A DNA stretch of 64,000 nucleotides from Maricaulis maris MCS10 (GTDB lineage: Bacteria; Pseudomonadota; Alphaproteobacteria; Caulobacterales; Maricaulaceae), in contig NC_008347.1 of the NCBI RefSeq assembly GCF_000014745.1, positions 1,497,501-1,561,500 of the forward strand. Reading direction: 5' to 3'. A model generated the notes under the pieces. That model did not search any database, was not told where the DNA came from, and saw only the letters and a list, made by a program, of their open reading frames with translations. A program made the translations under genes and the position numbers. Shown here one piece after another: positions 8,982 through 36,832 of this stretch. The stretch's first letter is position 1; every line of letters starts with the position of its first letter.

Positions 8982-10305
8982 GGCGGCTGGCGGGACGGGT
9001 GTTGGTGAAGGCGGCGGCGCACGGCCGTTCAGCCCCTATGAATTCCTGCTCGCCTTTCGCTATCTGCGCTCGCGCCGCAAGCATGGCGGCGTTGCCCTGA
9101 TTGCCTGGATATCCTTTGGCGGGATTGCGCTGGCAGTGACCGGCCTGATCGCCGTCATGTCGATCATGAACGGGTTTCGTGCCGAGCTGTTCAGCCAACT
9201 TCTCGGCTTTCAGCCGCATGTCTATGTCGATACACGGGAAATGCCCGCTGATGATGTCGACCGCCTTCTGCTCGAAATCGAAGCAATGACGGGCGTGACC
9301 AGCGCTGATCCGGTCATATCCGGTCAGGTCATGGCGACCTCGGACCGCTATGAAACCTTCCTCCAGGTCCTTGCCGTACGGCCGCAGGATCTCGCCGAAA
9401 TGGATGTCATCCGCTCCGGCGAGGACCCTCGCAGCCGAACCGGGCTGACCCATGGCGACCTCTCGGAATTCGGAACGGGCCGCAATGGCGGCGATGTCAT
9501 CGTGCTGGGCACCGGCGTGGCCCGTCGTCTCGGCGTCAATGTCGGCGACCGGGTGACTTTCCTGTCGGCCCGCGCCGCGCCGTCGGCTTTCGGGGCCCGG
9601 CCTCAGCAAAAAGCCTATTATGTCGGTGCCATCCTGGCCGCCGGCGTCTCCACCATTGATGACAGCCTGGCCTATATGCCGCTGGAGCAGGGGCAGTTGT
9701 TCTTCGTGCGGGGTGATGATGTGGACCTGATCCAGGTGCGTCTCGACGACGCCGAGCAGGCGCCGCTCTATGTAGATCCCGTGCGCGCGATCGCCGGACC
9801 CAATGCCGCCGTCTACGACTATACAAGGCTCGATCCGGCCTTTTTCAACGCGCTGCAATTCGAGCGCACGGCGATGCGGCTGATCCTGTCGATCGTTGTG
9901 GCGATCGCCGCGATGAACATCATTTCCGGCCTGGTCATGCTGGTGAAGAACAAGTCCCGCGACATTGCCATCCTGCGGACCATGGGCGCGACCCAGGCCT
10001 CGATCATGCGGGTCTTCCTGATCGTCGGCGCCAGCATCGGCATGGCCGGAACCCTGGCCGGCCTCACCCTGGGCATCCTGTTCGTGATGAATATCGGCCC
10101 CATCCAGGACTTCATCACCTGGACGACCGGCGCCCAGGTCTGGGATCCAAGCGTCTATTATCTCTATCGCATTCCCGCCAAGATGGATTGGGGCGAGGTC
10201 GGTTTCATCTCGATCTTCGGCCTTGTGGTGTCGCTGCTTGTCACCCTGCCACCAGCCTGGCGAGCGGCCCGTCTCGATCCGGTGGAGGCGCTGCGCTATG
10301 AGTGA
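8974..10305 (+). CDS. lolC: Lipoprotein-releasing ABC transporter permease, LolC/LolE family
   Basis: This is the inner-membrane permease that extracts mature lipoproteins and hands them to LolA for transport to the outer membrane. The 443-residue protein has one N-terminal membrane helix after [21 protein letters not shown], a large periplasmic domain, and three helices in the C-terminal FtsX domain, ending with [18 protein letters not shown]. Only one permease gene is present, so the transporter is probably a homodimer (LolF-like) working with LolD. It overlaps proS at its start and lolD at its end by eight bases each. Confidence 0.92.
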
Positions 10306-10987
10306 TTTCGTCCTCGAACTCGACGCCATCGAACGCACCTATGTGACCGAGGCCGGCGAGCTGCCCGTGCTGCGCGGCGCCAGCCTGTCGCTGGCACCGG
10401 GCGAGATTGTCGGGCTTGTCGGACCGTCCGGCTCCGGCAAGTCCTCCTTGCTGCATGCGGCCGGATTGCTGGAGCGTCCCGATGCCGGCGAAGTGCGGGT
10501 GAGGGGACAGGCGACGCGTGATCTGGATGATCGGGCACGCACCGCCATCCGCCGCCGCGATATCGGTTTCGTCTACCAATTCCACCATCTGCTGCCGGAA
10601 TTCGACGCGTTGGAAAACATCGTCCTGCCGCAGCTGATCGCCGGCGTTCCGTCCGCCAGGGCCCGTCAGCGCGCCGAAGAATTGCTGACCCGGCTGGGTC
10701 TGGCCGAGCGCCTGCTCCATCAGCCCTCTCAATTGTCCGGCGGGGAACAGCAGCGCGTCGCAATTGCCCGGGCGCTGGCCAATGCGCCGCATGTGCTGCT
10801 GGCCGACGAACCGACCGGAAATCTCGATCCGGATACCTCCGACACGGTGTTCGCCGCTTTCCGCGATACCGTCCGGGCCGAGGGCGCTGCGGCGCTCGTG
10901 GCGACCCATAACCACGAATTGGCCGGGCGGATGGACCGCATCCTGACCTTCGCGGACGGGCATCTGACGCCCTATGTCCCTGCCTGA
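10298..10987 (+). CDS. lolD: Lipoprotein-releasing ABC transporter ATP-binding protein LolD
   Basis: LolD powers lipoprotein release by ATP hydrolysis. In its 229 residues the Walker A motif GPSGSGKSS is at 42-50, the ABC signature [15 protein letters not shown] near 146, and Walker [12 protein letters not shown] near 168. The start ATG overlaps the end of lolC, as expected for translational coupling. A separate SOS-type promoter begins right after its stop codon, so this operon ends here. Confidence 0.95.
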
Positions 10988-11008
10988 GCAAGGCACTTTC
11001 ACCGAATG

Positions 11009-11023
11009 GAACAAAATTGGAAC
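11009..11023. promoter_or_regulatory. LexA (SOS) box 1 upstream of the micro-ORF
   Basis: The sequence GAAC-AAAATTG-GAAC is a perfect match to the alphaproteobacterial SOS box, a GTTC-N7-GTTC direct repeat read here on the opposite strand. It ends seven bases before the -35 hexamer at 11031. The LexA repressor that would bind it is encoded in this same window at 36036-36734. Confidence 0.88.
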
Positions 11024-11030
11024 AAATCTC

Positions 11031-11059
11031 TTGACGTCTTGATTGTCGCCAAATAGAAC
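11031..11059 (+). promoter_or_regulatory. Sigma-70-type promoter of the SOS micro-ORF
   Basis: TTGACG (11031-11036) and TAGAAC (11054-11059) are separated by exactly 17 bases. The lexA promoter on the other strand uses the same two hexamers with the same spacing. The -10 hexamer contains the first half of the second LexA box, so bound LexA would block RNA polymerase directly. Confidence 0.8.
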
Positions 11060-11070
11060 AAAGCACGAAC
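11056..11070. promoter_or_regulatory. LexA (SOS) box 2, overlapping the -10 region
   Basis: GAAC-AAAGCAC-GAAC is a second perfect GAAC-N7-GAAC operator, 47 bases downstream of the first. It starts inside the -10 hexamer and runs over the expected transcription start. Two perfect boxes around one promoter suggest tight repression in undamaged cells. Confidence 0.88.
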
Positions 11071-11091
11071 ATTGTTGTTGGGGAGATAGCC

Positions 11092-11187
11092 ATGCGCCGC
11101 GTTGTTCAAGATGTTTCTGCCGCCACTGCTGTTCTGGGTTTCGCCTGGATGATCGCGATGTGGGGATCGGTTCTCGGCGCTGCCTGA
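11092..11187 (+). CDS. 31-residue SOS-controlled membrane micro-protein, candidate SidA-type division inhibitor
   Basis: The ATG at 11092 follows a GGGGAGATAGCC ribosome-binding site and opens a 32-codon frame. The product starts MRRVVQDVS, then has one continuous hydrophobic segment (about residues 9-30) containing two tryptophans. Size, single membrane helix and control by two LexA boxes match what is known of Caulobacter SidA, a 29-residue SOS-induced inner-membrane protein that blocks division through FtsW/FtsN. The homology is inferred from size, topology and regulation, not from an alignment. Another SOS-induced membrane toxin is the main alternative. Confidence 0.72.
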   Translation: MRRVVQDVSAATAVLGFAWMIAMWGSVLGAA

Positions 11188-11317
11188 ACCGTCTATGCTG
11201 GCCCGGCTGACTCGGAGCGCGCTGGCAGGTGCTGATCCGGTGAGCGGTCGGGCCGGATGGCGGCCTGATGCGGTGTCCATGATCTAGGCAGGATCGGGGC
11301 CGGTTCGGGAGAGTGGG

Positions 11318-14761
<3,444 letters not shown>

Positions 14762-36035: not shown

Positions 36036-36734
36036 CTAATGATAACGCCGGATCAGGCCCACAAGGCGACCCTGCACCTTGACCCGATCGGGTGGGAAAA
36101 TACGCGTTTCATATTCGGGATTGGCCGCTTCCAGGGCGACGGAACCGCCCTTTTTGCGCAGGCGTTTCAGCGTGGCTTCCTCATCATCGATGAGGGCGAC
36201 CACGATATCGCCGGTTTCGGCCGACTGACAGCGCCGGATCAGCACGGTGTCACCGTCCATGATCCCGGCCTCGATCATTGAGTCACCCTTGACCTCGAGA
36301 CCGAAATGCTCACCGCCCATCACCATGTCGGCGGGGACGGGGAAGCGGTCGGTTTCGTGCTGGATTGCGGAGATCGGAACACCGGCCGCGATCCGGCCGA
36401 GCATGGGAATGTCCACCGTGTTCTCGCGGGCGTCCGGTTCAGGCTTGGCGAAATTGCCGCGGACCACATTGGCGCCGAGATCGCCTTTGGGAATAGCCGG
36501 GGTTTCGTGGGCCGCGGCCGATTCAGGCAGTTTGAGCACTTCCAGCGCCCGGGCGCGATGGGCGAGGCGACGAATGAAGCCGCGTTCCTCAAGCGCCGTG
36601 ATGAGCCTGTGCACGCCGGACTTTGACGCCAGCTGCAAGGCACCTTTCATCTCGTCAAACGAGGGTGAAACCCCGGTTTCCTTGATGCGATTATGGATGA
36701 AGAGCAAAAGCTCGTTCTGTTTCCGCGTCAGCAA
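36036..36734 (-). CDS. lexA: SOS response repressor and autoprotease LexA
   Basis: LexA represses DNA-damage genes until RecA filaments trigger its self-cleavage. The 232-residue protein has a winged helix-turn-helix N terminus, the cleavage site Ala117-Gly118 in [10 protein letters not shown], the nucleophile Ser152 (GDSMIEAG) and Lys190 (EEATLKRL) as catalytic base. The helix-turn-helix is of the alphaproteobacterial type that reads GTTC-N7-GTTC. Its own promoter contains such a box, and another pair lies at the micro-ORF at 11092. Confidence 0.97.
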
Positions 36735-36817: not shown

Positions 36818-36832
36818 GTTCTACAAGTGTTC
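36818..36832. promoter_or_regulatory. LexA (SOS) box of lexA
   Basis: GTTC-TACAAGT-GTTC is a perfect SOS box. One half-site lies inside the -10 hexamer of the lexA promoter, so LexA represses its own gene by blocking polymerase binding. Confidence 0.9.

Follow-up and report, generated by a model that had tools for sequence, protein, structure and literature searches.

The SOS division inhibitors of different bacteria have been described as unrelated genes, and yneA, chiZ and sidA are listed as genes unrelated to sulA (PMC4211646). SidA of Caulobacter is a 29-residue inner-membrane protein that is reported to interact with FtsW, and the FtsW variants F145L and A246T suppress it (PMC4211646). 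Low-confidence models in a 2026 paper place SidA, ChiZ and SosA, like YneA, at TM7 of FtsW (PMC13396833). The LexA motif of Caulobacter is given as GTTC-N7-GTTC, i.e., GAAC-N7-GAAC read on the opposite strand (PMC12700426). SidA is represented in NCBIfam by an equivalog model, NF033228 (cut-off 35 bits). The portions of the literature covered by our searches describe no wider distribution of SidA, which does not prove that none has been published.

The stretch of Maricaulis maris MCS10 DNA analysed here (64 kb, hereafter the window) carries a sidA-like gene on its forward strand (MRRVVQDVSAATAVLGFAWMIAMWGSVLGAA, nt 11092–11187), with an ATG at 11092 and a stop codon ending at 11187. The predicted product has 31 residues, with a basic start and a single hydrophobic helix (peak hydropathy 1.8 over 15 residues), and so resembles SidA in size and build; a gene this short is easily overlooked. 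A ribosome-binding site, GGGGAG, can be read at nt 11080–11085, and comparable purine-rich runs were seen by eye 5′ of the ATG in relatives. Further upstream are a −35 element (TTGACG, nt 11031–11036) and, 17 nt behind it, a −10 element (TAGAAC, nt 11054–11059), also read from the sequence. Two exact GAAC-N7-GAAC boxes accompany this promoter on the same strand. Box 1 (GAACAAAATTGGAAC, nt 11009–11023) is 5′ of the −35 element, while box 2 (GAACAAAGCACGAAC, nt 11056–11070) overlaps the −10 element, the third base of which is the first base of the box. The upstream neighbour is lolD, encoding an ABC transporter ATPase (nt 10298–10987, forward strand; top model TIGR02211, E 1.5e-72, 243.7 bits, under its cut-off of 307.75), and the downstream neighbour is dnaE, encoding the replicative DNA polymerase III alpha subunit (nt 11318–14761, forward strand; NF004226 above cut-off). 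An earlier note on this DNA had described two perfect LexA boxes at a TTGACG-N17-TAGAAC promoter, the second over the −10, and a 31-residue single-helix frame with its own ribosome-binding site between lolD and dnaE, and the coordinates given above agree with it on each of these points. The promoter is absent from the output of a sigma-70 promoter scan of nt 10900–11400, because the scan rule demands a T as the last base of the −10.

Nineteen Maricaulis loci, with 18 distinct sequences of the frame, were compared. The uncorrected pN/pS was 0.26 in frame, against 1.18 and 3.75 in the shifted frames, which is the opposite of substitutions that ignore the reading frame, a pattern that the earlier note would have held against the gene. 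Variable columns numbered 18, 10 and 26 (each of 30) at the three codon positions of the 18 distinct sequences. This is strong evidence that the 31-residue frame is a gene under protein-level purifying selection. In all 19 loci the −35 reads TTGAC followed by G, C or T, the −10 reads TAGAAC or AAGAAC after a spacer of 17–18 nt, and the third base of the −10 is also the first base of an exact LexA box; in 14 of them a second exact box stands 5′ of this proximal box. A dnaE match was obtained in 18 of 19 own-genus genomes (own included), and every one of the 18 has the frame, in 17 directly 5′ of dnaE. In another Maricaulis genome (G017) it lies behind lolD but about 1.3 kb upstream of dnaE, with another gene between. 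The intervening gene is a class A beta-lactamase-like frame on the minus strand (nt 1375–1701 of stretch L310), the C-terminal part of which is seen before the stretch ends.

The number of GAAC-N7-GAAC motifs was rejected as proof of LexA control. Three were observed in the window compared to 1.49 expected (19 of 100 shuffles reach three), and the genome, a single contig of 3,368,780 bases, has 69 matches versus 59 for the reversed pattern, so that the counts are compatible with chance by both controls. The boxes at the sidA-like gene are considered to be more than chance because two of them flank one promoter-like site, because known SOS genes of this genome carry the same motif upstream, and because the promoter and proximal box recur at all of the Maricaulis loci. 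The second of these reasons comes from a survey of 12 further genome stretches, picked by eye among the 69 sites and containing 15 exact boxes. Seven boxes are 5′ of SOS-type genes, i.e., lexA, ssb, uvrA, a uvrD/pcrA helicase gene, ruvC, mmcB and an ImuA-like frame, the last being a weak match (41.2 bits, cut-off 150) that precedes a second dnaE-like match. The other eight stand before genes with no SOS role known to us, or have no clear frame nearby. The lexA repressor gene lies within the same window on the minus strand (nt 36036–36734; TIGR00498 above cut-off; the longest frame begins at TTG), and an exact box on that strand (GAACACTTGTAGAAC, nt 36818–36832) is located 84 nt before its start. 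Taken together, the boxes beginning at nt 11009 and 11056 and the same motif in front of SOS genes point to a LexA-repressed promoter, from which we infer that the sidA-like gene is repressed by LexA and induced by damage. Boxes of the GAACAAA type elsewhere in this genome (L296, nt 1322; L298, nt 1074) mark candidate further SOS genes; downstream of them, judged by eye, are a glyoxalase-like frame and another of about 373 residues with a start resembling that of a radical SAM protein.

Scanned as a single sequence, the window protein matched nothing in Pfam or NCBIfam, including NF033228, and so falls outside the equivalog (>35 bits). When all 60 members of alignment A2 were scanned, Pfam returned four families with one stray match each, and NF033228 matched 10 members at E up to 1. 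Ten proteins were also scanned singly against NF033228. Four scored above 35 bits, namely two Caulobacter members and one from Phenylobacterium (65.6–73.7 bits) and a member from a Caulobacterales MAG (37.5 bits), while the window protein and three others gave no match; the same-place proteins of Brevundimonas (25.3 bits) and Asticcacaulis (26.5 bits) were below the cut-off. Over 398 genomes of the order the model gave 42 matches above cut-off and 79 at E up to 0.01, and over 14 control genomes it matched in Caulobacter vibrioides only. The NF033228 matches above cut-off are just 5′ of dnaE in all three genomes whose coordinates were compared (G046, G050 and G054), indicating that SidA itself occupies the place before dnaE in Caulobacteraceae, where the window gene is also found. 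Caulobacter sp. D5 (L097), for example, has a 29-residue frame upstream of dnaE that scores 72.4 bits. One of these genomes shows a second, weaker SidA-like match (28.5 bits; G050:C3:315102-315185, minus strand) away from the dnaE copy, a possible paralogue.

Kinship was traced through family profiles. Profile A3 (27 members, drawn from relatives close to the window's family and from that family itself) and profile A4 (19 Caulobacteraceae-type members) were matched by hhalign with a probability of 94.9 and an E of 4.5e-8 for that single comparison. None of 500 shuffles of all columns but the first reached the A3–A4 score (best 21.1 vs 31.0), and the same was true of 500 shuffles of the core columns only (best 28.6 vs 31.0). 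Profiles reduced to the core gave a narrow margin, 20.55 vs 19.31 for the best of 500 shuffles, tempered by the fact that synteny and regulation do not depend on the profile score. The window protein and a Caulobacter member are identical at 8 of 22 positions in their best stretch (BLAST E 1e-4 for that one comparison). Near-invariant positions are partly different in the two groups (G16, F17 and W24 in A3; V18 and W19 in A4). Since the family profile matches that of the SidA proteins found at the same place in Caulobacteraceae, the reading of the window gene as a syntenic sidA homologue that has diverged out of the equivalog model is well supported, and the SidA counterpart proposed by the earlier note is borne out by both profile match and position. 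The short frame that the note had suggested seeking before dnaE in relatives is present in Caulobacter (L097, L105, L110, L113) and in an Oceanicaulis MAG (L091), but not at two Hyphomonadaceae loci (L131, L134). One of the latter, L134, has an exact GAAC-N7-GAAC 272 nt from the end of the stretch, within lolD, where the EPTGN codons of the ATPase mimic a LexA box; these codons are a trap for operator scans upstream of dnaE.

Profile A2 matched 229 of the 398 genomes of the order at E up to 0.01, wherever in the genome; for the window's own family the figure is 85 of 91 genomes, provided that the six non-matching rows listed are all that belong to it. One family of the order (f2) showed no frame at dnaE in six fetched loci (L079, L080, L084, L086, L088, L089), and the six genomes concerned (G037, G041, G045, G049, G053, G057) had no A2 match; among the matches listed, A2 was found in f2 genomes G311, G575 and G580 only, at E 0.005–0.009. 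A fixed rule was also applied to the region upstream of dnaE, requiring an exact box no more than 560 nt from the stretch end and then an ATG frame with a hydrophobic helix. In 59 such regions from the genus, family and order, 46 had the box and 42 the hydrophobic frame after it. Corresponding values for 80 named loci were 36 and 34; the two sets share some loci (L065 and L125 are apparently the same contig).

Beyond these, 100 dnaE upstream regions from other members of the class were surveyed, representing 100 of 177 genomes with a dnaE match. The set leans to closer relatives because it consists mostly of the best-scoring dnaE matches, and one of its stretches has only 216 bases (contig end). 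An exact box was found in 17, with a hydrophobic frame behind 16 of them by the fixed rule; the seventeenth also has a small hydrophobic frame, with another start. For comparison with 16 of 17, boxless class loci examined at the same offsets gave such a frame in 58 of 1395 trials. The reversed motif occurred at 0/59, 1/80 and 1/100 loci of the three sets, and a box on the other strand at 3/59, 2/80 and 8/100. Two of those eight are second boxes at loci with a forward box, and six have no such frame behind them and are 78–109 nt from the end of the stretch. Boxes beginning GAACC made up 2 of 45 in the named set and 0 of 17 in the class set.

At E up to 0.1, a profile built from Caulobacterales only (A3 and A4 members) detected eight loci in the class set of 100. 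Seven of the eight have an exact box (Fisher p 8.8e-6), and the eighth (L201) has a box with one mismatch; the reversed-sequence control of this profile was empty at E up to 0.1 and gave a single match at E up to 1. At the other ten box-bearing loci the hydrophobic frames are below detection at E 0.1, three of them matching at E up to 1, and these ten frames are likely akin to SidA. Profile A1, run over 190 class genomes, matched in 24 at E up to 0.1. Ten matches adjoin dnaE (own genome included), 11 were set aside as chance, being located elsewhere, and three were left unplaced (G078, where the contig ends; G079 and G246, where the place of dnaE is not shown). Named carriers of box and frame include Parvibaculum, Stappia, three Parvularculaceae, a Rhodobiaceae MAG, a PS1-clade MAG and a MAG with the label Pseudolabrys. 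A DnaE tree of 54 rows, with good support for 22 of its 51 inner branches, shows carriers in at least four separate places, a scatter that fits inheritance with repeated loss. SidA may have been the ancestral SOS division inhibitor of the Alphaproteobacteria, its LexA-controlled gene having been retained in front of dnaE by many lineages and lost from some. In Parvibaculum-like bacteria, Parvularculaceae, Stappiaceae and others, the SOS division brakes would then be overlooked frames of about 25–50 residues, and the checkpoint would be physically wired to the replicase gene; we regard the chances for and against this wider proposal as evenly balanced.

Position next to dnaE raises the matter of a joint transcript. 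A simple scan of nt 10900–11400 found no terminator-like site (0.4 expected by chance), and LexA-controlled read-through from sidA into dnaE is possible. The wide recurrence of the gene neighbourhood is a further point in its favour. Two loci, L062 (G020) and L076 (G059), have an exact box 165 and 195 nt, respectively, before the end of the stretch and no sidA-like frame between box and dnaE. A promoter that drives dnaE as well would account for the retention of the box, and at these two loci dnaE may possibly have passed to direct SOS control once sidA had been lost. The gene placed between sidA and dnaE in G017 speaks against read-through. These observations also bear on whether the frame is a mere leader of a LexA-controlled dnaE transcript, its peptide functionless, as the two boxes kept without a frame and the lack of a terminator-like site in the scan could suggest. 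The strong purifying selection on the peptide, and the retention of the gene in G017 despite its separation from dnaE, make such a leader extremely improbable.

A second alternative accepts common ancestry with SidA and supposes that the protein now acts elsewhere in the membrane, on FtsI, FtsN or some other envelope process. Divergence beyond the equivalog model and the partly different near-invariant positions would be expected of a changed target, but place, control and size are the same as for SidA and the aligned columns outscore all 500 shuffles, so that a switch of target is improbable. Less probable again, and to be counted as very unlikely, is a membrane-depolarising SOS peptide in place of a divisome inhibitor. 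TisB of E. coli is a LexA-controlled, single-helix micro-protein and a membrane-active toxin, and the hallmarks of toxins of this type are an antisense RNA partner and membrane depolarisation. We know of no kinship or common locus between SidA and TisB or DinQ. DinQ of E. coli is likewise described as a LexA-controlled single-helix micro-protein, differing from a divisome inhibitor in being a membrane-active toxin (PMC3567139). The resemblance in control and build is outweighed by the homology of the window protein with SidA and by their common chromosomal place.

The interpretation we prefer, and hold to be highly probable as a whole, is that the gene is a sidA homologue acting as a LexA-repressed, damage-released division brake that binds FtsW. 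FtsW of Caulobacter sp. D5 has F at position 145 and A at position 246, and both residues recur at the aligned places of Maricaulis FtsW; this is weak evidence, because FtsW is conserved anyway. Combined with the reported interaction of SidA and FtsW, the match leads us to infer that the protein is a LexA-repressed inhibitor of septal wall synthesis, with FtsW the presumed target by homology. In the undamaged cell, LexA would occupy both boxes, including the one that covers the −10, and the geometry of operators and promoter suggests that the gene would be silent. DNA damage would lead to RecA-driven cleavage of LexA, freeing the promoter, and the 31-residue peptide would be made. Its sequence predicts a cytoplasmic basic N-terminus and a single helix in the inner membrane. 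By homology, the peptide would then bind FtsW and keep the FtsW/FtsI/FtsN complex inactive, so that division would wait for repair. The lolD-sidA-dnaE arrangement is widely kept, and co-transcription of dnaE would be possible without being required.

The window gene is ordinary in kind, and its interest lies in a family that is wider than its curated model. One SidA family can be traced at one chromosomal place past the reach of that model, and the wider family provides a ready list of candidate division brakes. Natural SidA variants could help to map the way in which FtsW is silenced by a helix of 30 residues, and the recurrent dnaE neighbourhood makes a coupling of replication and division testable.

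Among known systems, the gene most resembles C. crescentus SidA (CCNA_02004), a 29-residue, SOS-controlled inner-membrane protein, to which the 31-residue window protein would correspond in control and location. With its counterparts in congeners of C. crescentus it shares a basic start, a single helix and operators of the form GAAC-N7-GAAC, some of which have one mismatch in the congeners; with the Caulobacteraceae members of NF033228 it shares a place directly upstream of dnaE in the three genomes compared. It differs from SidA in being undetected by NF033228, the comparison with C. crescentus SidA having been made via these congeners and the model only. DidA of Caulobacter, as described in PMC4211646, is similar in being a small, single-helix, damage-induced division inhibitor at the FtsW/I/N complex, but has 71 residues, is SOS-independent and is driven by DriD. 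The YneA, SosA and ChiZ proteins of Gram-positive bacteria are also described as damage-induced membrane inhibitors of late division; unlike SidA, YneA and ChiZ have a LysM domain, and SidA is modelled on the opposite face of TM7 (PMC13396833).
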